IMG/VR virus record: IMGVR_UViG_3300017730_003473
Coordinates: 1-35,736 of that record
Direction: 5' to 3' (one strand)
Origin: a virus
Length of the DNA: 35,736 bases
Under the pieces are notes generated by a model that saw nothing but the letters and a program-made list of their open reading frames with translations, made no database searches and was not told the DNA's origin. The position numbers and the translations under genes are program-made. Below, one piece after another: positions 1,619-25,781 of this stretch. The stretch's first letter is position 1. Each line of letters starts with the position of its first letter.

Positions 1619-2692
1619 TTATACCACATCAAAATCCTTGAATATACGGTATAAAATGACATCTACAGTGTTCTTGTAAGTCAACCTGTCTGCTAACTTT
1701 TGTCCCTCTGTGTTAATTTGTCCCACTTTGCTTTCAGCCTTTTCCATTGCTTCTATCACATCTTCCTCTTCCCAATCATAGAAAGTTCCTTGATTAATAG
1801 GAGACTCCTTCTTGAAAAAGATGTTATCATAACATTCTACTTCCCCTGAAGGTTCCACCAAAATACAGTTATCTTTAGTAGCCCAATCTTTATGAGATGT
1901 GGCATTAAGAACAATGCTCCATTTGCCAAGACAAGTTGCGTTAAAAGCAGGCAGATTCCAACCTTCTGCCCCAGAAAGTCCTGTAAGATCAATGTCGATT
2001 GCATTTAAAAATTCATTGACTTCTGAGTTCTTTTCCAAATGAGGTAAGAAATTAATATTAGAATATCTTTCTCCACCTAAAACGGCATTGATTGTAGAAT
2101 CCATATCTTCTTTCTTATAGAAAGGGTTATTAACCAAACAAGAAAGTTGATATTTAGGATTATTACCGTATTGCTTTAACCAAGTCTGAATAATTTTAGC
2201 AGTATGCTTTCTATGTTCAAACTTACCCATTAATCCAAAATGGGTTATGTCATTCAAGTATTCTTTTTTTGTTTCTTTGAAATCTTCGTCGAAACCCAAT
2301 GGGCAGAACACGCCGCCAAACAAGTCAGAAGCGCAGGAAGAACTAAAGAATGTTTCACTTTGAGAAGCATAAATCTTTTTCTCGATATCTGTCGGTTTAT
2401 TACATTCATAAAAAGTTAACAGATATTGATTAGGATTTTTTCTGCTCTCAGAGCCATTTAAATGCCAAATTCTTAAGCTTGGTATTTTGTTGCTAAGGTA
2501 ATCATACCTATTATTGATACCATTTTCGATTTTTTTTACCAAATCTTCATCAGCATCGTAAGCTTTTAGGTCAACATTGCCTGTCGGCCAAATTCCAACG
2601 TCATAACCCCTATCGAAAAGCTCCCGGATAATGTTAAAAGAAACATTACCGAGGCTTAACGAGTTGATAGGAGCTTCAACTAAAATCTTCAT
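1619..2692 (-). CDS. GT-B glycosyltransferase (GT4-like)
   Basis: A 357-residue protein with the two-lobe plan of GT4-like glycosyltransferases. The N-terminus MKILVEAPINSLSLG is a Rossmann strand with a loop. The second lobe starts near residue 150 (HFGLMGKFEHRKH, 151-163), where GT4 enzymes have GRxxxxKG, and SGAEGWNLPAF (240-250) occupies the place of the nucleotide-sugar-binding EGFGLPxxE motif. Donor and acceptor are not predictable. Its ATG overlaps the ssb stop as TAATG, so it is translationally coupled to ssb, an odd partner for a glycosyltransferase. It may modify virion proteins, phage DNA or the host surface. No membrane segment is visible. Confidence 0.75.
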   Translation of the reverse strand: MKILVEAPINSLSLGNVSFNIIRELFDRGYDVGIWPTGNVDLKAYDADEDLVKKIENGINNRYDYLSNKIPSLRIWHLNGSESRKNPNQYLLTFYECNKPTDIEKKIYASQSETFFSSSCASDLFGGVFCPLGFDEDFKETKKEYLNDITHFGLMGKFEHRKHTAKIIQTWLKQYGNNPKYQLSCLVNNPFYKKEDMDSTINAVLGGERYSNINFLPHLEKNSEVNEFLNAIDIDLTGLSGAEGWNLPAFNATCLGKWSIVLNATSHKDWATKDNCILVEPSGEVECYDNIFFKKESPINQGTFYDWEEEDVIEAMEKAESKVGQINTEGQKLADRLTYKNTVDVILYRIFKDFDVV

Positions 2693-3087
2693 TAAAACGG
2701 AGGCTCATCATCAGATACTGGACCAGCGGTAGCGGTCGCAGGAGCGGAATCAGAATCAGAAGATTTTCCATCTTCTTTTTTACCAGAGTTTAAGAATTGA
2801 ATATCGTTTCCTCTGATGAAGTATTTCGATTGAGGTTTCCCTGTCTCTTTATTCTCCCAAGTATCCATTGCAAGCTCACCAGAAAAGACGAATTCACGAC
2901 CTTTTGTAAGGTACTTAGAGGCTATTTCCGAAAGCTTGTCCCAAACCTCAAGGTCAATAAAGCATTTAGTTTTAGCATTACTTTTGGAGATACCAATCCT
3001 TAGAGTGGTTACCGACTTACCGCCATTAAGTTGGCGTGTGACTGGATCTTTTACAAGATACCCTACTGCTGTAATATTATTATACAT
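2692..3087 (-). CDS. ssb: Single-stranded DNA-binding protein
   Basis: A 131-residue SSB of bacterial type. Residues 1-105 form an OB-fold with NNITAVGYLVKDPVTRQL at the N-terminus and FIDLEVWDKLSEIASKYLTKG in the middle, as in bacterial SSBs. A low-complexity Ser/Asp/Ala/Thr linker then leads to the acidic tip DDEPPF (126-131), closely matching the bacterial DDDIPF tip that docks replication and repair partners. It coats ssDNA during replication and recombination. Its start overlaps the end of the sigma gene by eight bases, and its stop overlaps the downstream glycosyltransferase ATG. The bacterial-type tip suggests that it can still recruit host SSB partners or phage proteins imitating them. 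Confidence 0.93.
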   Translation of the reverse strand: MYNNITAVGYLVKDPVTRQLNGGKSVTTLRIGISKSNAKTKCFIDLEVWDKLSEIASKYLTKGREFVFSGELAMDTWENKETGKPQSKYFIRGNDIQFLNSGKKEDGKSSDSDSAPATATAGPVSDDEPPF

Positions 3088-3649
3088 AATTTTCTGATTC
3101 TTTCTTGAATTTAGATAAATACCGATTGTGGATATTAATTACCCCTTGGATACTCATACCAAGGGACTTAGCTATCTTCCTCCAAGGTGTAAGCTTATTA
3201 GATACGTTATTGTACCTCATGTCAATAATTTTTTTAACCCTTTCGTCTTTTTCTTTATCTAAGGACTTTTTAAATAAGGAAAAGACCTCGTAATTCTCAT
3301 TGCTTTCGAAGCCGCCCTCATCTTCGGGTTGTTTGAGAAGATCATCTAGGGGGCATTTTTTAAATTTTTTATTCCTCGTTAGCGCATTCAAACATTTCCA
3401 TTTAGCTTCATTAGCTAGGTAAGTTGCAAATTTTGCACCTCTTGTAGGGTCATACTTTAACACCGAACTGTATATTGTAAATTCTTTTTCTAGAAGAATA
3501 CTATCTCTATCTTCAACGTTTTTATCACCGGAGAGAAACCTTTCCACCATACCGTGATAAACTCCTGAATGTCTGTTAATGATTTCGACAAGACTATCGT
3601 TGTCATTACTACTCTTTACTTTTTCAATTAATTCTTGATCCGTTTGCAT
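3080..3649 (-). CDS. Sigma-70 family RNA polymerase sigma factor
   Basis: A 189-residue two-domain sigma factor. Region 2 covers about residues 18-100; the 2.3/2.4 segment YDPTRGAKFATYLANEAKW (66-84) is the typical YDPxRGxxFxTYL motif that melts and reads the -10 box. Region 4 covers about 130-182, with a helix-turn-helix at WRKIAKSLGMSIQGVINIH (156-174). There is no region 1.1 or 3, so the size is that of ECF or phage sigma factors. It would redirect host RNA polymerase to phage promoters, plausibly the late ones. It is the first gene of the leftward block and faces the AT-rich control region, so its own expression is likely controlled there. The start has only a weak AAGAG upstream. Confidence 0.88.
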   Translation of the reverse strand: MQTDQELIEKVKSSNDNDSLVEIINRHSGVYHGMVERFLSGDKNVEDRDSILLEKEFTIYSSVLKYDPTRGAKFATYLANEAKWKCLNALTRNKKFKKCPLDDLLKQPEDEGGFESNENYEVFSLFKKSLDKEKDERVKKIIDMRYNNVSNKLTPWRKIAKSLGMSIQGVINIHNRYLSKFKKESENYV

Positions 3650-3693
3650 AACTCTTTTTTTAAAATACTAAAAACATTTATCCTTTTTTATAA

Positions 3694-3775
3694 TATATTA
3701 TATTAACGTATATATTATATTAATAGTATATATCATATTTTTATATCTATAATATTTTTATATATATTATATTAA
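3694..3775. repeat. Three perfect 13-base AT repeats (TATATTATATTAA)
   Basis: TATATTATATTAA occurs at 3694-3706, 3711-3723 and 3763-3775, all in the same orientation, with 17- and 52-base steps between starts. Such repeats recall the three AT-rich 13-mers of the unwinding element in E. coli oriC, although the sequences differ. Low complexity makes chance repeats easier here. Confidence 0.7.
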
Positions 3776-3800
3776 TATTATTCATTCGTTCCTTTTACCA

Positions 3801-3830
3801 GAGGTTTCACTTTAAAGCAAACGAAACCTC
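3801..3830. repeat. Inverted repeat GAGGTTTC / GAAACCTC
   Basis: Perfect 8-base arms at 3801-3808 and 3823-3830 flank a 14-base spacer that itself contains the palindrome CTTTAAAG. No T tract follows on either strand, so it is not a classical terminator. It could be a dimeric repressor site or an extruding hairpin next to the AT tract. Confidence 0.6.
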
Positions 3831-3840
3831 GCGGATTTTG

Positions 3841-3852
3841 ACCGTTAACGGT
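3841..3852. promoter_or_regulatory. 12-base perfect palindrome ACCGTTAACGGT, candidate operator
   Basis: The palindrome is perfect and overlaps a TTGACC hexamer (3838-3843), a good position for a regulator to block or aid RNA polymerase. No DNA-binding partner can be named. Confidence 0.45.
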
Positions 3853-3949
3853 ATTATAGGAATATTCAAATTCGTGTCAACAAAAAAAAAATTAAAAATT
3901 TTCGCTCGACACGCGACGAAATCGCTCTAAAAGTGTAACTATCTCTACC

Positions 3950-4921
3950 ATGATTTTTCAAGAACAAGTATCGCGTAAGCCTGACCATTATCCTTGGGCA
4001 GGAGAGTTTATCGAAGCAATGCATAACGGCTTCTGGACCGATAAAGAGTTCAGTTTTACGTCTGATTTGCAGGACTTTAACGTGGTATTGAATGAGCAAG
4101 AGAAAGAGATTATCGTTAGAACCCTCTCTGCAATCGGTCAGATTGAGGTAGCAGTTAAGAAGTTTTGGAGTAAGTTGGGTGACAATTTGCCGCACCCATC
4201 GTTTAGCGATTTAGGTTTTGTAATGGCTAACGTTGAAGTCATTCACAATAATGCGTATGAGAGGCTCTTGGAAGTCCTTGGTTTGGAAGAGGTTTTTGAG
4301 GAGAATCTAAAGCTCGACTTTATCGAGGGCCGAGTGAACTATCTTCGGAAATACACACACAAGTTTTACAAGAATAGCAAAAAGCAATACGTTTACGCTT
4401 TGATCCTATTCACCCTTTTTGTAGAGAACGTGTCGTTGTTTTCCCAATTTTACGTCATAAATTGGTTTTCCCGTTATCGTAACGTACTAAAAGATACTGA
4501 TCAACAAGTTAAGTATACTCGTAACGAAGAGAACGTTCATGCCTTGGTTGGGATGAAGATAATCAACACCATTAGAGATGAACACCCCGAACTATTTGAT
4601 GAAGAGTTGGAGGAACGTATTCTTGATGAGGCTCAACAAGCTTTTAAAGCTGAGAGTAACATCGTTGACTGGATGATCAATGGTATTCAAGCAAAAGGTC
4701 TTAATGCACCAATCCTAAAAGAGTTCATTAAAAATAGAATCAATGATTCTTTACAAAAAATTGGCTTTAAACAAGCTTTCGATGTTGACAAAAATCTGCT
4801 GAAAGATACAATTTGGTTTGAGGAGGAGTTACTTGGCAATAATGCCACTGATTTTTTCCATTCTAGACCTGTTGAGTACTCAAAAAATTCACAGACTTTC
4901 AACGAAGAAGACTTGTTTTAA
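3950..4921 (+). CDS. nrdB: Ribonucleotide reductase class I, beta (radical) subunit
   Basis: A 323-residue NrdB, which makes the radical for reduction of ribonucleotides to deoxyribonucleotides. Metal ligands can be read as E66 (AIGQIE), E96 and H99 (EVIH), E160 (FVEN), E194 and H197 (RNEENVH). A tyrosine, Y103, sits four residues after H99, as the radical tyrosine does in class Ia. The first ligand is Glu, as in Chlamydia-like and many Bacteroidota NrdB proteins, not the Asp of E. coli. The C-terminal tail FNEEDLF would dock to NrdA. No ATP cone is present. The stop is directly followed by the nrdA ATG, so the two are coupled. This is the first gene rightward of the control region. No Shine-Dalgarno is seen, and Arg codons here often are CGT. 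Confidence 0.95.
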   Translation: MIFQEQVSRKPDHYPWAGEFIEAMHNGFWTDKEFSFTSDLQDFNVVLNEQEKEIIVRTLSAIGQIEVAVKKFWSKLGDNLPHPSFSDLGFVMANVEVIHNNAYERLLEVLGLEEVFEENLKLDFIEGRVNYLRKYTHKFYKNSKKQYVYALILFTLFVENVSLFSQFYVINWFSRYRNVLKDTDQQVKYTRNEENVHALVGMKIINTIRDEHPELFDEELEERILDEAQQAFKAESNIVDWMINGIQAKGLNAPILKEFIKNRINDSLQKIGFKQAFDVDKNLLKDTIWFEEELLGNNATDFFHSRPVEYSKNSQTFNEEDLF

Positions 4922-6568
4922 ATGACTGAATATTATTGGCTAAACAAAGACTCAAGGGTATTTCTTGAGCGTGGTTACCTCAAAGATGGTGAAACTCCAG
5001 AGCAGAGGATTCGTGATATCGCAGATACTGCTGAAAAGTATCTAGGTATTGATGGGTTCTCTAATAAGTTTGTAGGCTATATGAAGCAGGGTTTTTACTC
5101 TTTAGCTTCTCCCGTCTGGTCTAACTTCGGTCGTAAGCGAGGTCTTCCTATATCTTGTAATGGTGTATATGTGCCTGACAGGATGGATGGTATCTTAGCT
5201 AAACAATCAGAGGTTGGAATGCAAACCAAGCATGGATCTGGGACATCAGCTTACTTTGGAGACCTCCGTGAACGGGGCGCACCGATAAATTCTGGAGGTG
5301 AGTCTTCTGGGGCTGTCCATTTTATGGAGCTATTTGATAAAGTCGCTTCTGTAGTATCTCAAGGCAATGTACGTCGTGGGTCTTTCGCTGCTTACCTCCC
5401 TATTGAGCATCCAGATGTAAAAGAGTTCCTCCGTATCCGAAGTGAAGGTAATCCAATCCAAGAGATGTCTTTCGCTGTAACGGTTACAGATGAGTGGATG
5501 AAATCAATGATAGGGGGTGATTCTGACAAACGCCAGATATGGGCTTCAGTCATTAAAAAAAGGTTTGAGACTGGTTATCCATATCTTTTCTTCCAAGATG
5601 CAGCAAATAACCAAGCTCCTGATTGCTATAAAGATAAAGGCATGAAGATTTATGCTTCTAATCTTTGTAATGAGATTGCTCTACCATCTAAAGAAGATGA
5701 ATCTTTTGTCTGCTGTTTATCTTCTCTTAATCTTATCCATTGGGATGATATTGTAGATACAGATGCTATTGAGACGTTAACAATGTTTCTTGACGCAGTT
5801 ATGGAGGAATATATTATTAAGACTAAGAATATTCCATTTATGGAGTCTTCCCATAATTTTGCAAAGCGTCATAGGGCTTTAGGTATGGGTGTCCTTGGCT
5901 GGCACTCTTACTTACAGAGTAAAATGATTAGCTTCGAAAGTATGGAGGCTAAACTGCAAAACAGTTACATCTTCAAGAAGATCCGTCAGCATAGTGATCT
6001 AGCAACTATACAACTTGCCAAACTACTAGGAAGCCCTTTATATTGTGAGGGTTACAACCGTAGAAACACTACGACTCTAGCTATTGCCCCAACTACGAGT
6101 AGTTCATTCATTTTGGGTCAAGTATCTCCATCTATTGAACCGCTTAATTCTAATTACTTTGTAAAGAATTTAGCTAAAGGGAAGTTCACTTACAGAAACC
6201 CATACCTTAAAACCCTCTTGGCTGAAAAAGGTAAAGACACTAATGAGGTTTGGATGAGTATACTTGAAACTGGGGGTTCTGTTCAGCATTTAGCTTTTTT
6301 AAGTGTCGAAGAGAAGGACGTATTTAAGACATTTGGAGAGATCACTCAGAAAGAAATAGTAATCCAAGCGTCTCAAAGACAGAAGTTTTTAGATCAAGGC
6401 CAATCTTTGAATCTTATGATAGCCCCTAAAGCTAACCTAAAAGAAGTAAATCAGCTTATGATTTTTGGTTGGGAGAGTGGATTAAAAGGGTTTTATTATC
6501 AAAGAAGTGCAAATCCCAGTCAAGAATTGGCTAGATCCCTTATGGAATGTAAATCTTGTGAAGGTTGA
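4922..6568 (+). CDS. nrdA: Ribonucleotide reductase class I, alpha (catalytic) subunit, short form
   Basis: A 548-residue NrdA, shorter than the roughly 760 residues of E. coli because it lacks the N-terminal ATP cone and is compact throughout. The catalytic core is intact: C79 (PISCNG) and a cysteine at CCLSSLNL (264-265) are the redox pair, NLCNE (247-251) carries the thiyl-radical cysteine C249 with N247 and E251, and GFYYQRSAN near the end carries the tyrosine pair of the radical path. The protein ends CKSCEG, the swinging CxxC tail that is re-reduced by thioredoxin or glutaredoxin. No such reductant is encoded in this window, so a host one is probably used. The overall wording (WLNKDSRVFLERGYL, GYFGDL-type segments) recalls the short Bacteroidota NrdA. 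It lies zero bases after nrdB. Confidence 0.95.
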   Translation: MTEYYWLNKDSRVFLERGYLKDGETPEQRIRDIADTAEKYLGIDGFSNKFVGYMKQGFYSLASPVWSNFGRKRGLPISCNGVYVPDRMDGILAKQSEVGMQTKHGSGTSAYFGDLRERGAPINSGGESSGAVHFMELFDKVASVVSQGNVRRGSFAAYLPIEHPDVKEFLRIRSEGNPIQEMSFAVTVTDEWMKSMIGGDSDKRQIWASVIKKRFETGYPYLFFQDAANNQAPDCYKDKGMKIYASNLCNEIALPSKEDESFVCCLSSLNLIHWDDIVDTDAIETLTMFLDAVMEEYIIKTKNIPFMESSHNFAKRHRALGMGVLGWHSYLQSKMISFESMEAKLQNSYIFKKIRQHSDLATIQLAKLLGSPLYCEGYNRRNTTTLAIAPTTSSSFILGQVSPSIEPLNSNYFVKNLAKGKFTYRNPYLKTLLAEKGKDTNEVWMSILETGGSVQHLAFLSVEEKDVFKTFGEITQKEIVIQASQRQKFLDQGQSLNLMIAPKANLKEVNQLMIFGWESGLKGFYYQRSANPSQELARSLMECKSCEG

Positions 6569-9174: not shown

Positions 9175-10008
9175 ATGGAAGAGACTTATATCATTTCGGA
9201 GATTGGCATTAATCACAACGGAGATCTAGATATAGCTAAGAAGCTTATTGATATTTCTGCTGCAGCTGGCTGCGATGCGGTCAAGTTTCAAAAAAGAAAT
9301 CCAGATGTTTGCGTCCCAGAACATCAAAAGTCTGTCATGCGTGACACTCCTTGGGGAGAGATGACATATCTTGATTACAAATACAAGGTTGAGTTTGGCA
9401 AAGAAGAGTATGATGAGATTGACCGTTACTGTAAAGAGAAAGGTATATCTTGGAGTGCTTCACCTTGGGATTTAGATAGCTTAGAGTTCTTAAATCAATA
9501 TGATATTCCATTCATCAAGATAGCTTCTGCTAGCATTACAGATAAAGAGCTTCTAAAGAAAACTTGTGAGACTGGTAAAAAAGTCATTATCTCTACAGGT
9601 ATGAGTTCTGAAGAGGAGATTGATGAAGCTGTTGATATCCTGAAAGATAACGCTTCGGATTATGCAGTTTTGCACTGCAACTCGTCTTATCCCGCTCCAA
9701 TAGAAGAATTGAATCTCTCTTGTGTTAAAACTTTAAAAGATAAGTACGGATGTCAAGTTGGTTACAGTGGGCATGAATTCCGACTTGGCACTACAGTCGC
9801 TGCTGTTTATCTTGGGGCTACTATTATTGAGCGTCATGTAACTCTTGACAGGACCATGTGGGGTTCCGATCATATGGCTTCAGTTGAACCTCAAGGTCTC
9901 TTCAAACTTGTCAGTGGTATTAGAGAGTTGGAACAGTCTTTCGGAGATGGGAAGATTTCAGTTACAGAAACTGAAGCTGAAGTGAGAAAAAAACTTAGGA
10001 ATAGTTAA
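9175..10008 (+). CDS. neuB: NeuB-type nonulosonic (sialic) acid synthase without SAF domain
   Basis: A 277-residue TIM-barrel enzyme that condenses phosphoenolpyruvate with an N-acylated hexosamine (ManNAc-like) to a nine-carbon acid. Motifs: SEIGINHNGD (8-17), AVKFQKRNP (35-43), KIASASITD (115-123), and metal-binding histidines H200 (GYSGHEFRLG) and H221 (IERHVTLDR) followed by GSDHMASVEP. The usual protein has about 345 residues; this one stops at RKKLRNS, just where the C-terminal SAF (antifreeze-like) domain should begin. Because that domain lids the partner subunit's active site, activity may be altered, or a separate protein may supply it. Whether the product is sialic, legionaminic or pseudaminic acid cannot be told. 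It is followed directly (TAATG) by a CstI-like transferase. Confidence 0.92.
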   Translation: MEETYIISEIGINHNGDLDIAKKLIDISAAAGCDAVKFQKRNPDVCVPEHQKSVMRDTPWGEMTYLDYKYKVEFGKEEYDEIDRYCKEKGISWSASPWDLDSLEFLNQYDIPFIKIASASITDKELLKKTCETGKKVIISTGMSSEEEIDEAVDILKDNASDYAVLHCNSSYPAPIEELNLSCVKTLKDKYGCQVGYSGHEFRLGTTVAAVYLGATIIERHVTLDRTMWGSDHMASVEPQGLFKLVSGIRELEQSFGDGKISVTETEAEVRKKLRNS

Positions 10009-10829
10009 TGGATCTTTACAGGAAAGATATTTTCCAAGGAGGCTGGTTTTCTTTTCATTCTACAGTTTCAGATTGGGTAAAGACATCTAAAAAGTTACAA
10101 ACAGCCTTTTTCAAGAGCTTTATGTTCAATGAAGTTTTTGGGGAATCTGAGGTCACCGATGAGCTTTTAATAAAATCGGATATAGATTTTAGCTTCATAA
10201 AAGATAAATCTGTTTTAGTTATTGGAGGTGGACCATCCTCTAAAACACTAACAGATAATCAAATAAAATCCTACGATCTAGTTTTTAGCTGTAATCATTT
10301 TTTTAAGAACGATTTGCTAAAAAAACATAAGATTCATTTAGCTTTAATTGGTGATGAAGTTAATTTTAATGATCCTGAGTTTTTAGATTATGTTAATAAC
10401 CATAATCCTATCCTAGGCTTTGATCATTCGGCTAGGAGGCCAGCTTTTAATTTATTAAAACTTAAGGAGAGTTACCCTTTATGTTTTATTTGGCTAACTA
10501 GATATTTTTCAAGGCTTGGTTATGTCCCTAGAGCTTGTGTGTTAGCTAAATTATTTGGAGCATCGAAGATAGATTTTATAGGTTTAGATGGATTCAGAAC
10601 TAACGAACACTTTTTTGAGAAGGATAAAAGCCCTCCTCCATTCAATGATGTAAAAGAGTTCCAAGATCAGATGAGGGTATTTTGTGAATATATGTTAAAC
10701 TGTCTAAAAATTGAAGTTGAGAATTTCAACGATTTATCCAGTAATAATATTTATGAAGGGATATTAGAGGATGTTAAACTTAGTTATGAAAACGGCACTA
10801 TATTACAATGGGCTAATTGGAGCGCTTAA
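10008..10829 (+). CDS. GT42/DUF115-like sugar transferase, copy 1
   Basis: A 273-residue protein. Residues 68-100 contain SVLVIGGGPSSKT and LVFSCNHFFKND, which correspond to the AGNGPSL and FRCNQFYFE motifs of Campylobacter CstI/CstII sialyltransferases (GT42) and to the related DUF115/Maf nonulosonate transferases. Further on, GASKIDFIGLDGF corresponds to their GIDFY strand. Known members transfer CMP-activated nonulosonates to glycans or flagellin. It overlaps neuB by one base (TAATG), which supports use of the NeuB product. A second, clearly related copy is at 13303. Acceptor is unknown. The family call is from motifs only; a pterin-kinase MptE-like protein shares the same Rossmann start and is the alternative. 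Confidence 0.65.
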   Translation: MDLYRKDIFQGGWFSFHSTVSDWVKTSKKLQTAFFKSFMFNEVFGESEVTDELLIKSDIDFSFIKDKSVLVIGGGPSSKTLTDNQIKSYDLVFSCNHFFKNDLLKKHKIHLALIGDEVNFNDPEFLDYVNNHNPILGFDHSARRPAFNLLKLKESYPLCFIWLTRYFSRLGYVPRACVLAKLFGASKIDFIGLDGFRTNEHFFEKDKSPPPFNDVKEFQDQMRVFCEYMLNCLKIEVENFNDLSSNNIYEGILEDVKLSYENGTILQWANWSA

Positions 10830-10857
10830 CAACTTTTTAAGTAATAAATAAAACAAA

Positions 10858-11772
10858 ATGTCGCAAGTAAACTTTAATAATAGCCAGAGTTATCTTTTAG
10901 AAACAGATTACGATCTTTTTTATAAGGTGACTGGTTCCACTATAGAGGGATTAGAACAAGAAATAAAAAACAATTCAGCTACTCATTCAGAGGTTTATAG
11001 TTCAAAAAAATTCGTAAACAACGAAAACTTAAATAAATTGGGTTTACATGTCTATAGGGTTTTGCTAGCTAGAAGAGTTTATGAAAAAAGGGCTGAAGGC
11101 AATGATGACTTTGATAAAAATGGATTTAAAGTTTATGAAAACTTCTTACCAGAACAGTTATTCAATAATTTAGTCTCTGTTTTTAAAAATGAAGTTGAAC
11201 CCAATCACCAAAAAGGGGGCGTGATACCTGTAAACCCTAAACCTTTCTTGCAGATGCCTCGATTATTAGATATAATTAAAAAATCTTCGCATATTTCAGA
11301 TTTTAAATTTAGTTTTCCTAACGCTAGTTTTTGGCATGTGTTACAAAAAGAAAATGATGATCAAGCTAAATATCACTCAGATACTTTTCAACCAACAATA
11401 AAGTGTTGGGTTTATTTAGATGATGTCGCAATTAACAATGGTCCATTTCATTTCGTCCCAAAAAGTCATATTGTAGATGAAAACAGGTTAAGATGGGAAA
11501 AAGAGAACTCTTTATCCGAAGAGGGTTCTGAACTTTGGAGGCAGAGAGACGGTAAAGGAGGCTCATTTAGAGTTTTAAAAGATTCAACAGTAGAAGAAGA
11601 GGATATTTTTATTAAAAATATGGGTTACACCCCACTACCTATGGTTGGTAAGAAAAATTCACTGGTAGTTGCTGATACATTTGGCCTTCATAAAAGAGGT
11701 TTAGGAGACATAGGGACTTATAGAAGCTCTCTAACTCTAGAGTATCGGCCCCAACCATTTTACATTTACTAA
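10858..11772 (+). CDS. Phytanoyl-CoA dioxygenase-like (PhyH) Fe(II)/2-oxoglutarate oxygenase
   Basis: A 304-residue protein with the PhyH iron triad: H173 and D175 (KYHSDTF) and H278 (FGLHKRG), plus R289 for 2-oxoglutarate binding. The family's GPFHFVPKSH turn is at 196-205. Such enzymes hydroxylate small molecules, lipids or sugars. In a glycan cassette it may hydroxylate a sugar or a carried acyl group, but the substrate cannot be read. An N-terminal stretch of about 85 residues precedes the catalytic domain. The 28-base gap before it is AT-rich and has no clear -35; the stop overlaps the next gene as TAATG. Confidence 0.85.
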   Translation: MSQVNFNNSQSYLLETDYDLFYKVTGSTIEGLEQEIKNNSATHSEVYSSKKFVNNENLNKLGLHVYRVLLARRVYEKRAEGNDDFDKNGFKVYENFLPEQLFNNLVSVFKNEVEPNHQKGGVIPVNPKPFLQMPRLLDIIKKSSHISDFKFSFPNASFWHVLQKENDDQAKYHSDTFQPTIKCWVYLDDVAINNGPFHFVPKSHIVDENRLRWEKENSLSEEGSELWRQRDGKGGSFRVLKDSTVEEEDIFIKNMGYTPLPMVGKKNSLVVADTFGLHKRGLGDIGTYRSSLTLEYRPQPFYIY

Positions 11773-12530
11773 TGATGTTGTCACAAAAAGAAATAAAACA
11801 ATGTTTAGATGAGCATAAACTCATAAGAGAGAAATACCTATCCAAAGAATGCTTGTTATCTTGCTTTACAAATTCTAGCCCGAGAGGTATAACGATTTCT
11901 CTTGAAGATTTTTTAAACAATGAAAAACATTTAAACTGGTTGCCGGATAGAAAAAGTTTTTTCAACTCGATGAATAGTTCTGGTAAATTTTCATACGAAA
12001 ACGATAATTGTAATTTTTTAGAAATAGGAACAGCTGATGGAGCTAACGCATTGAGAATAAGTAAAGAATTTTCTCCTAAAAAATTGTGGTTAATTGATCC
12101 GTATGAGTTTCAGAATGACAGATCAGCGGATAGAGGTCACAATCAAATGATTCATAATAGAGCTTTCAATAAAGCTAAAAACATTCTACACGATCAAAGT
12201 TGTGAATTTATAGTAAATTACTCAAAGAATGTTGTGGATAGGTTTAAAGATGAGTTTTTTGATTTTATTTACGTAGATGGTGATCATTCATATGAAGGTT
12301 GTAAAGCGGATTTAGATATGTACTACCCTAAATTAAAAAAAGGAGGAGTAATGAGTGGTCATGATTTTACTGGAACAAAAAAATCAATGAAATTAAAAGG
12401 TTTTGGGGTCCAAAAAGCGGTTTGCGAATTTTTAAACAAAAACTCCAAAAAGCTAGATTTTATTACAATTTGTATTGAAACTGAAAAACCCGAAATCATT
12501 CTTCCTTTTGATTGGGGCTTCATAAAATGA
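11772..12530 (+). CDS. Class I SAM-dependent methyltransferase (Methyltransf_24-like)
   Basis: A 252-residue protein with the Rossmann SAM-binding motif NFLEIGTADGANAL (81-94), a conserved acidic LIDPYE (107-112), and FIYVDGDHSYEG (165-176) followed by YYPKLKKGGVMSGHDF, the typical pattern of Methyltransf_24 enzymes found in capsule and O-antigen loci. It probably O-methylates a sugar. Two adjacent ATG codons (11772 and 11775) are possible starts; the first overlaps the upstream stop. The end overlaps the next gene as ATGA. Confidence 0.85.
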   Translation: MMLSQKEIKQCLDEHKLIREKYLSKECLLSCFTNSSPRGITISLEDFLNNEKHLNWLPDRKSFFNSMNSSGKFSYENDNCNFLEIGTADGANALRISKEFSPKKLWLIDPYEFQNDRSADRGHNQMIHNRAFNKAKNILHDQSCEFIVNYSKNVVDRFKDEFFDFIYVDGDHSYEGCKADLDMYYPKLKKGGVMSGHDFTGTKKSMKLKGFGVQKAVCEFLNKNSKKLDFITICIETEKPEIILPFDWGFIK

Positions 12531-13303
12531 AAACGGCGTTATGTTATAGTGGTCAAATCGGAGCTTTTAACAAAGCTTTAAATTCACAAAACCAATCATT
12601 CATGGATGATGTAGATGATATCTACGCTTACACATCTAATGTCGTTTCGCATAAGACTTTGAACAGTCCCCAGCTAAGACCTAGTTCAGAAGTTTATGAG
12701 TATCTTAAGAATGGTGAAGGGTGGAGAAAAAATCAGCCTTCATACGGGGTAGTTTACAAGATTAAGGATTCCCAAGTTGAGGGCTTACTGGCTCTTGTAA
12801 AAACAAAAAAACAATTTATAGAAGATGAATCTTTAGAAGAAGCGCTTAATGATTCAAACATGTCAAAGTGGCAATGGCTTAGAAAAAGACAGTTATGGAA
12901 AATGTATCAATGCCACCAAATGATTGAAGGTGACTATGATATTATTATCCGGTGCAGGTTTGAGTTTAATCCTTTTGTGAAAATACCTATAAAAGAGATT
13001 TATGAAACCCACAACTCTGAAGACAAGATATTTTTATTTGGCGGGTGGAATTGCGTCGCCCCAATGATTTTCATGGATAAGTTCATGTGCGATGGCTTTG
13101 CGTTTGGGTCTCCTAAAGCTATGGGCGTCTTTTCCTCTTTATACTTACAGGAGAAAGCTTATCCCTACGACCCAAAATATAAAGATTGTTGGGTTAGGTT
13201 TGGAGATAACGTCGAATATCAATTGGAAAAGCATTTAAAAAAACACGGTATTGAATTAGTATATATAGGGGACAAGAGGTCAATGTACCATTTACAGAGA
13301 TAA
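12527..13303 (+). CDS. Putative glycosyltransferase-like protein, KTALCYSGQ family
   Basis: I take ATG 12527, which forms an ATGA overlap with the methyltransferase stop; an upstream in-frame TTG (12512) is less likely. The 258-residue product starts MKTALCYSGQIGAFNKAL, a beta strand and loop seen in sugar-transferase-like proteins of O-antigen and capsule loci. YDIIIRCRFEFNPF (about 137-150) resembles the KxRxD segment of WavE-type enzymes, with the last Asp changed. FGSPKAMGVFSSL follows the plan of the acceptor side of GT-A enzymes. The function is inferred mostly from this and from its neighbours. It is followed by the second GT42-like gene with a TAATG overlap. Confidence 0.55.
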   Translation: MKTALCYSGQIGAFNKALNSQNQSFMDDVDDIYAYTSNVVSHKTLNSPQLRPSSEVYEYLKNGEGWRKNQPSYGVVYKIKDSQVEGLLALVKTKKQFIEDESLEEALNDSNMSKWQWLRKRQLWKMYQCHQMIEGDYDIIIRCRFEFNPFVKIPIKEIYETHNSEDKIFLFGGWNCVAPMIFMDKFMCDGFAFGSPKAMGVFSSLYLQEKAYPYDPKYKDCWVRFGDNVEYQLEKHLKKHGIELVYIGDKRSMYHLQR

Positions 13304-14079
13304 TGAAAACGTGGGAAAATTGTGAAGATAAAACTGAAGCCACCTTCGTGTCTTCTGAAGATAGGTTTGTTGAGAGCGTCAGAGGTCTAAGTTGGTTAGA
13401 GCCTCAAAACATAAAAAAGTCATCATTTAAATGCACCAGCAATTACATTTATGAGGATATAAAAGATTTTAATAAATTTAAAAATTCTAAGATATTGGTT
13501 GTTGGTGGTGGGCCATCGTCAAGTAGTTTGCAATTTGAACGAAAAGATTATGACTATATATTCTCTTGTAACCATTTTTTTAAGTGTGAAAAATTCAAAG
13601 ATATAAATCTGGATGTTTTGTTTGTGGGCAATGAAGTGAATACTTTTTCCATTCAATTCTTAGAATATTGTCGGAGGAGTCCGACTTATCTAGCTGTAGA
13701 AGATTTAAAAGAAAAATTAGCTCATTTACACTGCTTAATGCATTTTTTCCCTGAAAAAACCTTTTTATGTTCAAGTAGGTATCAAAGTAAATTCACAGGA
13801 ACGGCTTCTAAGATGGTAATTTTCGCTCTAGAGCTAGGCGCAAACCAAGTGGACTTTGTAGGCGTTGATGGGGTAGCTCCAGATTTTAAGTCTGGACAAT
13901 TGGTACCTCATGGATTTGAAAATAAGAAGTTATTCAGGAAGAAAAAGATATCAAAGTACTCAGATGTCATAAGGCACTATAAACATTTTGACGCTTACAT
14001 CAGAGATTTTTACCCTAACTGCAAGATAAACAATCTAGGGCGGTTTAATAAATATAATTATTCTTATGAAGGACATTAG
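13303..14079 (+). CDS. GT42/DUF115-like sugar transferase, copy 2
   Basis: A 258-residue paralogue of the protein at 10008. Shared blocks are ILVVGGGPSSSSL (64-76), YIFSCNHFFKCEKF (85-98), a VLFVGNEVN strand, and GANQVDFVGVDG, all in the same order and spacing as in copy 1. The same GT42 and DUF115 comparison applies, with the CN pair of SCNHFF matching the CNQFY motif of CstII. The two copies differ clearly along most of their length, so the duplication is old or they were acquired separately, and they could use different acceptors. It overlaps the NeuA-like gene by 14 bases, which links it to an activated nonulosonate donor. Confidence 0.65.
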   Translation: MKTWENCEDKTEATFVSSEDRFVESVRGLSWLEPQNIKKSSFKCTSNYIYEDIKDFNKFKNSKILVVGGGPSSSSLQFERKDYDYIFSCNHFFKCEKFKDINLDVLFVGNEVNTFSIQFLEYCRRSPTYLAVEDLKEKLAHLHCLMHFFPEKTFLCSSRYQSKFTGTASKMVIFALELGANQVDFVGVDGVAPDFKSGQLVPHGFENKKLFRKKKISKYSDVIRHYKHFDAYIRDFYPNCKINNLGRFNKYNYSYEGH

Positions 14080-14749
14080 TGACATAGCTGTAATCGTGCA
14101 AGCTCGACTCAACTCAGAGAGAGTCCCGAAGAAAATGACTAGATCTTTTTGTGGCTCTAATCTTTTCGAGATAGGATTACAGAAACTTTTTAAATCAACA
14201 ATCGTCCCGTCAGCCAATGTTTTTGCTTCCGTATATGAACAAGAGTTAATTGATATAGCTAATGACAACGGCGCTCAGGTTTACAAAAGAAGTTTCGATT
14301 CTGCTAATAATGATAATTCATTACAAAAAATTTATGAATGGCATGACAAGCTCCCTTATAAATATGTTATAAAGGTAAATCTATGTTCACCTCTTTTAAA
14401 AATAGAAACAATAGATTCTTTTGTTGAGACTTTTCTTAACCAAGAGGAAGATAACCTTTTTGGGGTTATTGAACAAAAAGACTACTTCTGGGATAATAAA
14501 GGTAAGTTGATTACTCCTTGGCCTGAAGACCAGACAATAATGAACACAAAAGCTGTTACCGAAACATACAAAGCTGCTCACGTTTTATATGCCTCTAGAT
14601 TAGATCTAATATCTAAAAACATGTTTATGGGAGACTTCCAAAAAGAAGGAGGCATCAAACTTTACCCGATGGAAGAGTTAGAGTGCTTCGATATTGACTA
14701 TGAGTGGCAGTTTAAAACAGCAGAATTACTTTATGACAATATATGTTGA
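14066..14749 (+). CDS. neuA: NeuA-like acylneuraminate cytidylyltransferase
   Basis: A 227-residue nucleotidyltransferase. The N-terminal IAVIVQARLNSERVPKKM (8-25) is the CTP-binding motif of CMP-sialic acid synthetases and their spore-coat SpsF-like relatives. Near the end ECFDIDYEWQFKTAELL matches the DIDTxxDFxxAE motif of NeuA proteins. These enzymes activate a nonulosonate with CTP, making the CMP-sugar donor used by GT42 transferases. With NeuB and two GT42-like proteins nearby, the cassette has the make, activate and transfer steps. SpsF-like proteins with another substrate are the alternative. It overlaps the preceding gene by 14 bases and the following HAD gene by 17 bases. Confidence 0.8.
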   Translation: MKDISDIAVIVQARLNSERVPKKMTRSFCGSNLFEIGLQKLFKSTIVPSANVFASVYEQELIDIANDNGAQVYKRSFDSANNDNSLQKIYEWHDKLPYKYVIKVNLCSPLLKIETIDSFVETFLNQEEDNLFGVIEQKDYFWDNKGKLITPWPEDQTIMNTKAVTETYKAAHVLYASRLDLISKNMFMGDFQKEGGIKLYPMEELECFDIDYEWQFKTAELLYDNIC

Positions 14750-15026
14750 TATAGATGAAACTATATTCATGACCCAAAATATGGATTACGAAAATAGTCA
14801 ACCATTTTTAGAGCGGATACAAAAAATCAATAAACTTTATGATGAAGGTCATACTATTGTATACTGGACCGCTAGGGGTTCGGGATCTGGTAAAGACTGG
14901 TCAAAAGTGACGAAAGATCAATTTGAACGTTACGGCGTGAAACATCACACTTTAAAATTTGGCAAACCTGTATATGATCTATTTATAGACGATAAGAATA
15001 TTAACTCAGAAGTTTTTTTTAAATGA
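14733..15026 (+). CDS. Small HAD-superfamily protein of capsule-locus type
   Basis: The start is taken at ATG 14733, because the family motif IYVDIDETI begins right after it; an in-frame ATG at 14694 would add 13 residues with no family similarity. The 97-residue product has HAD motif I (DIDET), a motif II-like segment TIVYWTARGS, and an acidic motif near FIDDKNINS. Small HADs of this type are found in capsule and lipopolysaccharide gene clusters, where they are supposed to be sugar-phosphate phosphatases. The protein has no cap domain and is smaller than most active HAD enzymes. It overlaps both neighbours (17 and 4 bases). Confidence 0.8.
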   Translation: MTIYVDIDETIFMTQNMDYENSQPFLERIQKINKLYDEGHTIVYWTARGSGSGKDWSKVTKDQFERYGVKHHTLKFGKPVYDLFIDDKNINSEVFFK

Positions 15027-16051
15027 AGAAGGTAATCATTACAGGGGTAACAGGTCAAGATGGTAGCTTTATGGCTGATTACCTCTTGGAGAACACAGAG
15101 CATATTGTTGTGGCTGGCGTTCGAAGGTTGAGTGTTAAAAACCACCAGAATATAGCTCATCTACTAGATAATCCTCGTTTCAAGCTTATTGACTTGGATG
15201 TTGCTGACCAAGCTAATACAGAATTGGTGATAGCGGAAGAGAAGCCTGATTATTTTATAAATTTTGCGGCTAATTCTTTTGTCGGCGTCAGTTGGAGGAT
15301 GCCAGTCAATCATATGGAGACTAACGCTATGGCTGTTTTATACCAACTTGAGGCTATTCGCAAATATTGCCCAGAATGCAGGTATTATAATGCTGGCTCT
15401 TCAGAAGAGTTTGGGGACGTCCAGTACTCTCCTCAGTCAGAACTTCACCCTTTACGTCCAAGAAGCCCTTATGGGGTCTCTAAGGCTAGTGCGAGGCATA
15501 TGGTGAAGGTCTGGAGGGATTCTTATGATTTATTCGCTATCCAAGGTTGGTTATTCAATCATGAAGGGACTCGTCGTGGAGAGGAGTTTGTCACTCGTAA
15601 AATAACTAAGAATGCAGCTCGTATCAAAAATCAATACACATCAAGTGAATTTAAGCCTCTTGAACTAGGTAATATTGACGCTAAAAGAGATTGGAGCGAT
15701 TCCGAAGATTTTGTAGAGGGTATTTGGTTAATGTTAAATCAAGAAGAACCTATAGAATATGTTTTATCTTCAAATGAGACTCACACCATTAGGGAGTTTG
15801 TAGAGCAAGCATTTAATTTTGCTGGGTTTGCTGCTGATAAGTGCGAGTGGGTGGGGGAAGGTGTAGATGAGAAATATATGCATGAAGGTAGGGTTTTAAT
15901 GAAGGTCAATCCAAATTTTTATCGCCCCGCCGAAGTGGAATTACTTTGGGGTGACTCTTCTAATGCTCGAAGGTTTCTTGGTTGGAAGCCTAGAACTGAC
16001 TTTATAAGATTAGTTGGGAAAATGGTTGCACACGATCTGAAAGAGTGGTAA
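15023..16051 (+). CDS. gmd: GDP-mannose 4,6-dehydratase
   Basis: A 342-residue short-chain dehydrogenase/reductase making GDP-4-keto-6-deoxymannose, the precursor of fucose, rhamnose, perosamine and others. Motifs: TGVTGQDG (7-14) binds NADP; YNAGSSEEFG (122-131) is the family's active-site segment with S126 and E128; SPYGVSKASARH (148-159) holds Y150 and K154 of the YxxxK pair; LFNHEGTRRGEEFVTRKI matches the GMD substrate region. The length is close to the normal 345-370. gmd occurs in several cyanophages. No reductase or epimerase for the keto-sugar is visible here, so a host enzyme would complete the pathway. It is the last gene of the glycan cassette. Confidence 0.93.
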   Translation: MKKVIITGVTGQDGSFMADYLLENTEHIVVAGVRRLSVKNHQNIAHLLDNPRFKLIDLDVADQANTELVIAEEKPDYFINFAANSFVGVSWRMPVNHMETNAMAVLYQLEAIRKYCPECRYYNAGSSEEFGDVQYSPQSELHPLRPRSPYGVSKASARHMVKVWRDSYDLFAIQGWLFNHEGTRRGEEFVTRKITKNAARIKNQYTSSEFKPLELGNIDAKRDWSDSEDFVEGIWLMLNQEEPIEYVLSSNETHTIREFVEQAFNFAGFAADKCEWVGEGVDEKYMHEGRVLMKVNPNFYRPAEVELLWGDSSNARRFLGWKPRTDFIRLVGKMVAHDLKEW

Positions 16052-21868: not shown

Positions 21869-22615
21869 GTGATGACCCCTGTATTTAGATCCACATACTC
21901 TTACGGTAAAAGCATTTTAACTTTAGACGGAAAGTCAAAGGAGTTTGGTGCAGATTCCTTGGTTGATATCTGCCTTAGTAATAACATCAAGGATGTTGTT
22001 TTGGTAGAAGATAATCTAACAAGCTTTATGAAGGCGTTTAAAGTTTGCTCAAGCAATGACCTCAACTTGTATTATGGATTAAGGCTGACTTTCTGCAACG
22101 ATATGAATGAAGAGTCGTCAAGCTCTAATCATAAAAACATCATTTTTGCTAAGACTGATGAAGGATGTAAACTTTTGAACAAAATATACTCTTGCGCTTT
22201 TACAGAGGGTGATGGGAGGATAGATTATCCTACATTTAAGAAGTACTGGGATAAAACATCATTGTCGTTTGTTGTTCCGTTTTATGATAGCTATATACAT
22301 GAGAATAACTTCCATCAAAAGAATTGCATCCCTGATTTAGAAGGTTTAGATCCTGTGTTTTGGTCCGAGAGTAACGATTTACCTTTCGACCATTTACTGG
22401 ATATCAAGGTTCAAGAAGCTACAAAAAGAAAGCAATATAGGGTTGCTAAAGTTAAAACGATCCTATATAAAGAGAAAAAGGATGTCGAAGCTCTTCAAAC
22501 TTACAAGATTCTTTCTACCAGATCTTTTGGAAGGCCGTCAACACTTAGCAGCCCAGATTTAAACCATTTTGGCAGTCAAGAATTCTGTTTTGAAAGTTAC
22601 CTTGAACAATCATGA
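21869..22615 (+). CDS. Stand-alone degenerate PHP domain of DNA polymerase III alpha
   Basis: A 248-residue protein (start GTG 21869 or ATG 21872) that looks like the N-terminal PHP domain of DnaE, encoded separately. FRSTYSYGKSILTLDG (6-21) corresponds to the DnaE start FxHLHxHSxYSLLDG, and later KDVVLVEDN (41-49) to the ALTDHGN strand, LNLYYGLRL (66-74) to GIKPIIGxE, and IIFAKTDEGCKLLNKIYS to LLAKNxxGYxNLxKLxS. The catalytic HxH and DH histidines are replaced, so phosphoesterase activity is not expected and the domain should be structural. It is followed by the exonuclease gene (ATGA overlap) and then the polymerase body. Confidence 0.75.
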   Translation: MMTPVFRSTYSYGKSILTLDGKSKEFGADSLVDICLSNNIKDVVLVEDNLTSFMKAFKVCSSNDLNLYYGLRLTFCNDMNEESSSSNHKNIIFAKTDEGCKLLNKIYSCAFTEGDGRIDYPTFKKYWDKTSLSFVVPFYDSYIHENNFHQKNCIPDLEGLDPVFWSESNDLPFDHLLDIKVQEATKRKQYRVAKVKTILYKEKKDVEALQTYKILSTRSFGRPSTLSSPDLNHFGSQEFCFESYLEQS

Positions 22616-23244
22616 ATGATCAACTATTAAGATTTGATAAGAATCAAAAATATCTCGTATTAGATACTGAGACCGAAGGCTTGAACCTTGTTAAATCAAG
22701 ACCATACCAAGTATCTTGGATCATTGCTCAAGGAGATAGGGTTCTAGAGAAGAATGATAGGTATCTTTGGTGGTCTGACCTACAGATGTCAGAGGGAGCG
22801 GTTAGAACAAATAAATTTAAGTATGACTACTATAAATCAAGGGCTGAAGATCCAAAAAGTGTGTGGGAGGATTTCTCTAAAGAACTCTACAATCCAGAAT
22901 ACAAAGTTGTGGGGCAGAACCTTCTAGGGTTTGATGTTTACATGATCAACGTGTGGAGGAAATTGATGGGTTTGGGATCTGACCACTCTTATGTGGATAG
23001 AATTATAGATACCTTGAGTTTAGCTAGAGCCATAGCAAAAGAGGATGAACCTAATTTTGATAATTTCATGTGTTGGCAGTATGGGTGGAACAACTTTTTC
23101 CAGAGGGGCTTGAGAGCAGGGCAAGCCACCCTACTCAAGAAATATAACATCCCGCACGATAAAGATAGATTACATGACGCTCTTTACGATATCGAGATGA
23201 ACTTCAAGATCTTCAGAAAGCAATTATACGATATAGAATTATGA
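22612..23244 (+). CDS. DnaQ-like DEDDh 3'-5' proofreading exonuclease
   Basis: A 210-residue exonuclease with all catalytic residues: D18 and E20 in LVLDTETEGL (15-24, ExoI), D108 in VVGQNLLGFDVYM (99-111, ExoII), and H188 and D193 in RLHDALYDIEMN (186-197, ExoIII). This is the DEDDh type of DnaQ/epsilon and the PolC exonuclease domain. Its place between the PHP-like gene and the polymerase gene, with 4-base ATGA overlaps on both sides, strongly suggests it proofreads for this polymerase. There is no clear clamp-binding motif. Confidence 0.9.
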   Translation: MNDQLLRFDKNQKYLVLDTETEGLNLVKSRPYQVSWIIAQGDRVLEKNDRYLWWSDLQMSEGAVRTNKFKYDYYKSRAEDPKSVWEDFSKELYNPEYKVVGQNLLGFDVYMINVWRKLMGLGSDHSYVDRIIDTLSLARAIAKEDEPNFDNFMCWQYGWNNFFQRGLRAGQATLLKKYNIPHDKDRLHDALYDIEMNFKIFRKQLYDIEL

Positions 23245-25781
23245 GATACAAAAACCCGTTTCCAGCTGGTGTAAAGCTGCCAGAGATTGTCATCCCAAAA
23301 AGTATCTTAGATGAGTTGAGTCTTCAAGAGGGGAGTTCAAACAAAGACATTTTATATGAGCTTTCTAGAAAAGGCTTAAGAGATAGAGGTATCATTAAGC
23401 TTAAAAATAGGAAGGCTTACTATGATCGCACTGTAATGGAGCTTGAGATTTTTGAGGAGTTAGGATTTATTGATTATATTCTACTCAACTGGGATGTTCT
23501 TTACTTTTGTAAAAAGAATAGCATCCCAACAGGTGCCGGACGAGGATCTGCAGCAGGTTCGTTAGTCTTGTATCTTTTAGGTGTAACAAATATTGACCCA
23601 ATTGAATATGACTTATTTTTTGAAAGATTCGTATCTAGAAGTAGAGCAAAACAAATTGAGCATGATGGCGAAGTTTTCCTTGATGGGTCTCTTCTTGCTG
23701 ATGTTGATAATGATATCTCTTATAATCGCAGGAGCGAAGTTGTTAAATATATCGAAGAAAAATACAAAGGGAGAACGTCTAAGATCCTGACTCTCAATAC
23801 TCTTAGTGGTAAGCTATGCATGAAGGAATGCGGAAAGATAGTATCTGAACTTAACGAGACGGACGTAAACCAAATAAGCGACAGTATTCCGAAACAGTTC
23901 GGAAAGGTGGCTAAATTAAAAGTTGCTTACGAAGAGAGTGAATCATTTAAGAAACACGCAGATAACCACCCAAAAGCTTTTAAGATAGCTAAGAAGTTAG
24001 AAGGTTTAGTGAAAAACACAGGCGTCCACCCTTCAGGGATTTCGATTTGTTATTATGAACAATCAGATATCATGCCTCTGCAAAAAACTAATGATGACTC
24101 TTTGGTTTCTGGTTATGACATGGATGACGTTGCAAGTTTAAGTGTTAAATTTGATATTCTTGGTCTCAGGACTTTGTCTGTTGTCAATGATGTCTGTAGT
24201 AGTCTAGGTATAGATGTAGATGGCATAAACCCTCATGACCCTTTAATTTATACTGCCCTGTCTAACCTACAAAGCCCACAAGGTTTATTCCAGATAGAAG
24301 CTGATACAAACTTTAAAGTCTGCCAAAGTGTCGCCCCAAGGAACCTTGAGCAGCTTTCTGCTGTTGTAGCTATTGCTAGACCCGGAGCGTTAGACTTCAA
24401 AGATAGGTATGCTGAATACGTTAAGACTGGAGAATCTCAGTCGGTACATGAATTTTTCGATTCTGTTTTGAACTATACAGGAGGTATCCCCCTTTATCAG
24501 GAACAGTTAATGAAGATGGCTGTCAAAGTTGGCTTTAGCTTAGATGAAGCGGAACAGCTTCGGCGTATTGTTGGAAAGAAAAAAATAGACCAAATGCCAG
24601 CTTGGAAAACTAAAATAACTGAAAAAGTAGGCCAGCTTGAAAATCCAGATCCTGCTATAGCGGATGTTTTGTGGAAGGTTGCGGAAGACTCTGCGAACTA
24701 CTCATTCAACAAATCTCACTCTATTAGTTATGCATATCTAGCAGCCATTACGGTCTATTTAAAATTCAAATATCCACAACAGTTCTTTTTAAGCCTGTTG
24801 AAGTTCACGAAGTTTGAACCAAATAGCCATGAAGAGATATCTAAAATTTCTCAAGAGTTGATGGATTTCGATATCAAACTCCTACCTCCTGATCTAAATA
24901 AATCAGATATAGACTTCAAAATAGAAGGAAAGGATGTCAGGTATGGGTTGAACTCAATTAAAGGGGTCTCTGAGAAGGTCTTGAAGCATTTGTTGGAGTT
25001 TAGAGAGGATTCTTTTGAAAATAAGTATGATGTCTTTACGGCAGCTAAACAGGCTGGAGTTAATATAGGGGTGTTGTCAGCTTTGATTCAAGCTGGGCTT
25101 TTAGATTCATTCGTTACAGCTAACAGATCCCAGTTGGTTTTAGAAGCTCAGACTTTTAATATTCTTACAGATAGAGAGAAGAGGAACTTTAAAGCTTTAG
25201 GCAAAGAGCATAAGTATGACATATGCTGCTCTATAGACAAGGCTATTTCAGAAGAATTAATTGGGGATGATAATAAAAGAATATTCTCAGATAGAAGGAT
25301 CAATACTATAAAAAAGAAAAGAGAGCCTTATATAGAAATATTAAAGCGGAATAGAAAATCTATAAAGTACGCTAATTGGTATTTCGAAACTCAACTTCTA
25401 GGCTACAGTTATTCCTATACTATTAGGGATATATTTAAACATCCTGAAGATTACCAATGTTCTGATTCTGTAAAGATGGCTGGGGTAAGATCTGAAGTAA
25501 GATGTGTTGGTGTTTTAGTGGATATAATAAAGAGAACTAGTAGAAATGGCAACAAATATGCTAGGTTAGAACTACATGATGAAAAAGGTATTATTAATGT
25601 CCTATTTATGGATAGTAATAGAGAGTCTCGCTTGACATCTTACTTAAATGCAGGTAATAAGTTGCCCAAGAAAGATGATGTCGTAATCATTACTGGAAGT
25701 AAAGGTGATGATATTATTTTCGCAAACACCGTTAATACTTTAAAAGATAAAATTTACATGAAGCTTTCTCAGGTAAAATAA
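23241..25781 (+). CDS. dnaE: DNA polymerase III alpha (DnaE-type), polymerase body without PHP domain
   Basis: An 846-residue C-family polymerase, against about 1160 for E. coli DnaE; the missing N-terminal PHP part is encoded two genes upstream. PTGAGRGSAAGSLVLYLLG (96-114) matches the palm GPGRGSGAGSLV motif. The catalytic triad is D154, D156 (with D158) in LLADVDNDI and D305 in VKFDILGLRTL. A roughly 16-residue insertion lies between FFERFVS and the D-x-D-x-D motif. GVHPSGISI, GLFQIEAD, IPLYQEQLMKMA, LRRIVGKKK and YSFNKSHSISYAYLA are the usual fingers and palm landmarks. A helix-hairpin-helix region and an OB-fold (VRCVGVLVDIIKRTSRNGNK onward) finish the protein. It is the phage replicase and needs a sliding clamp, which I do not see here. 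Confidence 0.93.
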   Translation: MRYKNPFPAGVKLPEIVIPKSILDELSLQEGSSNKDILYELSRKGLRDRGIIKLKNRKAYYDRTVMELEIFEELGFIDYILLNWDVLYFCKKNSIPTGAGRGSAAGSLVLYLLGVTNIDPIEYDLFFERFVSRSRAKQIEHDGEVFLDGSLLADVDNDISYNRRSEVVKYIEEKYKGRTSKILTLNTLSGKLCMKECGKIVSELNETDVNQISDSIPKQFGKVAKLKVAYEESESFKKHADNHPKAFKIAKKLEGLVKNTGVHPSGISICYYEQSDIMPLQKTNDDSLVSGYDMDDVASLSVKFDILGLRTLSVVNDVCSSLGIDVDGINPHDPLIYTALSNLQSPQGLFQIEADTNFKVCQSVAPRNLEQLSAVVAIARPGALDFKDRYAEYVKTGESQSVHEFFDSVLNYTGGIPLYQEQLMKMAVKVGFSLDEAEQLRRIVGKKKIDQMPAWKTKITEKVGQLENPDPAIADVLWKVAEDSANYSFNKSHSISYAYLAAITVYLKFKYPQQFFLSLLKFTKFEPNSHEEISKISQELMDFDIKLLPPDLNKSDIDFKIEGKDVRYGLNSIKGVSEKVLKHLLEFREDSFENKYDVFTAAKQAGVNIGVLSALIQAGLLDSFVTANRSQLVLEAQTFNILTDREKRNFKALGKEHKYDICCSIDKAISEELIGDDNKRIFSDRRINTIKKKREPYIEILKRNRKSIKYANWYFETQLLGYSYSYTIRDIFKHPEDYQCSDSVKMAGVRSEVRCVGVLVDIIKRTSRNGNKYARLELHDEKGIINVLFMDSNRESRLTSYLNAGNKLPKKDDVVIITGSKGDDIIFANTVNTLKDKIYMKLSQVK

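Follow-up and report, generated by a model that had tools for sequence, protein, structure and literature searches.

A putative control element conserved between sigma-like and nrdB genes in a lineage of uncultured phages

Judging from comparison with related loci, the A/T-rich gap between a sigma-like gene and nrdB in a viral contig of 35,736 nt (IMG/VR record IMGVR_UViG_3300017730_003473, analysed at full length and referred to below as the window) is a control element that has been strongly conserved in a lineage of uncultured phages. At the level of sequence, the comparison established a promoter and its conservation, ordered boxes in the relatives, a single copy per genome, a fixed locus and an opposite orientation in one clade. 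The parts of this cassette follow one another in a set order (promoter, then a row of short, CG-centred ACG boxes shortly after the start site, then an A/T-rich dyad or tract) in non-coding DNA between sigma and nrdB. A first-pass annotation had proposed that the gap may be the origin for the phage's own replisome; the reasons given for this failed, and the proposal is retained tentatively on other grounds, namely the conserved, one-per-genome cassette and an anatomy resembling that of T4 oriF/oriG and lambda ori.

The gap in the window

The leftward flank of the gap is a gene for a small sigma-factor-like protein (3080–3649, minus strand), which matched an ECF sigma structure at E 6e-4 and also PHROG regulators; no Pfam family was found for it, and none of the annotated phages carried a close homologue. 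The next gene of the leftward island (2692–3087, minus strand) was assigned by protein match to single-strand DNA-binding protein (SSB) and is among the neighbours of the cassette in the window's group. The rightward flank (3950–4921, plus strand) was likewise assigned by protein match to nrdB, the small subunit of ribonucleotide reductase. Among cultured relatives, the nrdB homologues examined, those of DSS3_VP1 and phage Phosso, are placed in other gene contexts. A DnaB-like helicase, primase, RecA and DnaE are all encoded in the window, and no initiator-like protein family was found among the window proteins tested. The DnaE-type polymerase looks split at 21869–25781, where an N-terminal-like part (PHROG polymerase match), an RNase_T exonuclease gene and the DnaE core were found. 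Genes for NeuB, a cytidylyltransferase and GDP-mannose 4,6-dehydratase lie in a sugar gene block at 9175–16051, which suggests that the phage makes or modifies a surface sugar.

Five of the 99 bases at 3684–3782 are G or C, exactly as had been counted in the first-pass annotation, and no other 99-bp stretch in the 35.7 kb is as low (next best elsewhere: 18). The least stable 80 bp of the window falls in this tract (-69 kcal/mol against a mean of -100, sd 5.3), and a tract of this composition lies well outside chance expectation. A 17-bp x 5 array was called by TRF at 3693–3778. Exact copies of TATATTATATTAA, the 13-base repeat described earlier, were located at 3694–3706 (plus strand), 3711–3723 and 3763–3775, with none elsewhere in the window. 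When the 99 bp were shuffled at constant dinucleotide composition, three or more copies of some 13-mer turned up in 310 of 5000 shuffles (6.2%), and the triplet is therefore weak evidence once the tract is given. One copy each was found in the nearest relatives (L006, with sigma 91% identical and a gap of 227 nt, and likewise L008 and L010), and since the window and L006 are sisters in the sigma tree, the triplet reads as a recent local expansion. On this comparison it is a local accident, private to the window's closest lineage, that proves nothing on origin, and the tract appears to be a shorter palindromic A/T tract that was enlarged in this lineage. The gaps of contigs L002 and L003 are identical to that of the window, which makes an assembly error unlikely.

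A leftward sigma70-type promoter, TTGACA-16-TATAAT, was found on the minus strand at 3880–3853; both hexamers match the consensus (12/12), the spacing falls within 16–18 bp, and the promoter is conserved in relatives. Directly downstream of its -10 and over the transcription start, which is predicted near 3846 (minus strand), about 7 nt past the -10, lies a perfect palindrome, ACCGTTAACGGT (3841–3852, no strand), whose group B counterpart, CCGTGAAACGG, is near-invariant there. A second dyad (3801–3830, no strand) was read from the sequence, with arms GAGGTTTC (3801–3808) and GAAACCTC (3823–3830); the two different dyads of the first-pass annotation are thus both present. The second is imperfectly conserved and was rejected as a conserved hairpin, because only its right arm (minus-strand GAGGxTTCGT) is near-constant in relatives.

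The cassette across relatives

A search with nrdB gave 80 related loci, in all of which a sigma homologue lay upstream on the opposite strand. Among 72 distinct gaps, which all belong to a single phage lineage and do not count as independent, a sigma70-type promoter of at least 10/12 was present in 71 (25 expected from shuffles), of at least 11/12 in 60 (2.5 in shuffles) and of 12/12 in 37 (0 in shuffles). All 30 group B sequences carry four further ACG boxes after CCGTGAAACGG, 17–20 nt apart (mostly 18 and 19), with an A/T-rich TAAATATATTATAA downstream of the boxes, and chains of at least four ACG boxes were confined to the gap in 6/6 group B genomes. The window itself holds no chain of four, its array being degenerate. 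CG is in excess in all groups, with distance peaks at 18 in A, at 18–19 in B and at 11, 26 and 15 in C. Palindromes of the GGATACGTATCC type occur in group C together with an A/T dyad whose arms covary; a covarying GGC/GCC-type hairpin comes next, in most members with a T run. The A/T part is the least or nearly the least stable DNA in the window and in most group B genomes; two group C genomes (G001 and G002) show no unusually unstable stretch at the gap, 3.8% and 8.6% of the genome being less stable. Conservation of the gap, named in the first-pass annotation as a check, was found for the promoter, boxes and A/T part and not for the 13-mer triplet.

One clear copy of the cassette per contig was recovered by profile search of long contigs. 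When 2.9 million viral contigs were scanned by pattern, nrdB lay next to 44/44 of the B-type sites and 15/16 of the C-type sites, with sigma on the other side wherever that flank was present. The only C-type dyad off the locus (L250) was discarded: it lies in an intergenic region that is unrelated, holds two hairpins of similar form and has neither nrdB nor sigma close by. These two A/T hairpins (1479–1545 of L250, an unrelated phage) have a loop resembling the one in the group C dyad (CACTACGTTC), and perhaps a hairpin type is shared.

Orientation and neighbouring transcription

The cassette points left in groups A (13/13), B (44/44), D (3/3) and E (5/5) and right in group C (20/20). In the sigma tree all of group C falls into a single clade, and the change of direction therefore needs no more than one reversal (or an independent origin). 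A second leftward promoter (11/12) lies beyond the cassette in groups D and E (7/7 tested), and a terminator-like hairpin follows the cassette in most of group C and in L193; the cassette there is thus more than the promoter of the gene next to it and, in groups C, D and E, has the look of a short transcription unit of its own. In three members of group C (L036, L037 and L064), sigma has a weaker leftward promoter (10/12). Most of A and B have no strong second leftward promoter beyond the cassette, and the cassette promoter in these groups may also serve sigma. An extra gene lies between sigma and the cassette in L159, L178, L193, L195 and L198, and also in L044, where from its translation it looks like a nucleotide kinase. 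Group E has additional sequence between cassette and sigma, with a kinase-like gene by translation.

On the nrdB side, a GTGTAA element (AAGTGTAAC, 3933–3938, plus strand) lies 17 nt before the nrdB ATG and was picked out by hexamer enrichment as a candidate phage-specific -10. In the window and nine relatives (G001–G007, G010 and G014), GTGTAA was the most enriched of all hexamers at 9–24 nt ahead of start codons (68/867, against 7 further upstream and 7 for the reverse complement). SD-like sequence was found at 1/68 of these sites and no constant -35 was seen; the genes that carry the element upstream include those for a tail protein and PhoH. GTGTAA is probably a phage-specific promoter element and a candidate near-leaderless one, and it is our guess that the neighbouring sigma-like protein reads it. 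TTGAC and GTGTAA were considered as halves of one promoter and this was rejected; their spacing differs by group (by eye), and GTGTAA was therefore treated as an element of its own. The T4 late promoter (TATAAATA) is alike in being a -10-like element near starts with no conserved -35, but its letters differ. A literature search on a GTGTAA phage promoter gave no relevant work among the titles listed. In comparison with group C1 (L014–L023), nrdAB (window 3950–6568) is 84–92% identical and sigma only 35–39%, which suggests a recombinational exchange of nrdAB whose junction lies in or near the gap.

Replication start or control region

An origin of the DnaA/oriC type, with the three 13-mers as its unwinding element, is very improbable and already contradicted. 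The A/T tract does carry three A/T 13-mers, as does the E. coli oriC DUE, but the triplet that had been taken as the hallmark of such an element is missing in the closest relatives and is equalled by the shuffles given above. DnaA boxes are absent from the gap, as the first-pass annotation had said, and one-mismatch boxes in the window were at chance level (104 found, 102.7 expected). Lack of a skew change at the gap was named in that annotation as grounds for refutation, and the result goes against the proposal: in nine relatives of 72–118 kb the cumulative GC skew made no turn there; it rises on both flanks because the leftward genes are a small island of about 2–7 kb within a mostly rightward genome. 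Gene blocks do diverge at the gap, as had been claimed, but the leftward block is no more than this island. Genes of either orientation have positive skew on the strand that encodes them, and no consistent difference in skew set the rightward genes left of the gap apart from those right of it. A GC-skew minimum at 3993 in the window was rejected as an origin sign, being accounted for by gene orientation.

A short regulatory RNA gene or antitermination leader, in which the hairpins of a 100–200 nt RNA would matter and not DNA boxes, is unlikely. Such an RNA would fit the strong covariation of the A/T hairpin and terminator stem in group C (36 double-changed cells against 11.8 when shuffled, reached by 0/500 shuffles), and no conserved ORF was found in the sampled cassettes. 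However, covariation was found at 0/8 predicted pairs in B and almost none in A, so that a fold of the whole A/B leader was given up for lack of useful covariation, and a known RNA family was rejected after an Rfam search returned no match. The constant letters in B are the spaced ACG boxes and not a fold, and the lack of RNA covariation at the B boxes is what DNA sites would show. A purely transcriptional early control region is a serious possibility, nearly as likely as a transcription-coupled origin. On this view the consensus promoter would drive immediate-early transcription of the leftward operon (sigma, SSB) in A and B, the dyad and ACG boxes would be tandem operators for a phage repressor or the sigma, and the A/T tract would be leader DNA. 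Divergent operons require promoters in the gap, and this account agrees with the 12/12 promoter before sigma, with the palindrome over its expected start, with boxes placed where a repressor would block RNA polymerase and with the lack of a strong second leftward promoter in most of A and B. It agrees less well with the absence of the dyad and box array at other promoters of the genomes and with the leftward genes of D and E, which have a second promoter of their own; in C the cassette is directed towards nrdB, yet a terminator-like hairpin and nrdB's own GTGTAA mostly lie between the two.

The reading ranked first, held tentatively and at somewhat less than an even chance, is that the cassette is a site where replication starts coupled to transcription, in the manner of T4 oriF and with lambda-like iterons, because its anatomy matches T4 oriF/oriG and, in the boxes, lambda ori. 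T4 oriF and oriG combine a promoter and an A/T-rich downstream element in about 100 bp (PMC3016281), and lambda ori has 19-bp iterons next to 40 bp of A/T (PMC5043065). As in the T4 origins, a promoter is followed by A/T-rich DNA within 100–200 bp, the site lies where transcription switches strands, and the phage has a RecA-like protein and a replisome of its own. The conserved 12/12 promoter is predicted to direct RNA into the element, and the A/T-rich downstream part is present in the window and most of B and weak in G001 and G002 (group C). Unlike the MotA-dependent middle promoter of T4, the cassette has a consensus sigma70 promoter; it also has ordered boxes between promoter and A/T tract, a terminator-like hairpin in most of C and no compositional shift. 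R-loop formation and autonomous replication are further marks of the T4 type. Group B shares with lambda ori and iteron plasmids a row of four boxes 18–19 bp apart beside an A/T-rich stretch, in keeping with the row of at least 3–4 initiator sites of about 17–22 bp in iteron origins (30/30 sequences). The cassette differs from these in that ACG alone is constant per box, the promoter is directly upstream, the array is degenerate in the window and no O- or Rep-like initiator was found among the tested window proteins.

If the cassette starts replication, host RNA polymerase would make a short RNA early in infection, through the boxes into the A/T-rich part, and the ACG boxes would be occupied by a phage DNA-binding protein. 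The A/T-rich part would then melt, and the transcript or open bubble would give the DnaB-like helicase, the primase and the DnaE polymerase a place to load; nrdB, across the gap, would rely on its own GTGTAA element. Against an origin stand the lack of a skew turn, the ordinary stability in G001 and G002, the degenerate boxes of the window and the absence of an initiator among the proteins tested, and the promoter in A and B can simply read into sigma. It is rather doubtful that the cassette is an undescribed kind of phage origin, one in which a consensus promoter, a periodic row of ACG iterons, an A/T dyad and, in some clades, a terminator form a short transcription unit whose internal order is kept, whose direction relative to the flanks is reversed between clades and whose iteron sequence is clade-specific.

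If it is an origin, the cassette would show how origins are built in a common lineage of uncultured phages that have a DnaE-type replisome of their own, a design recognisable from sequence alone. If it is a control region only, it would mark the meeting point of host-type early and phage GTGTAA-type transcription, and even then it would caution against taking A/T 13-mers for origins.
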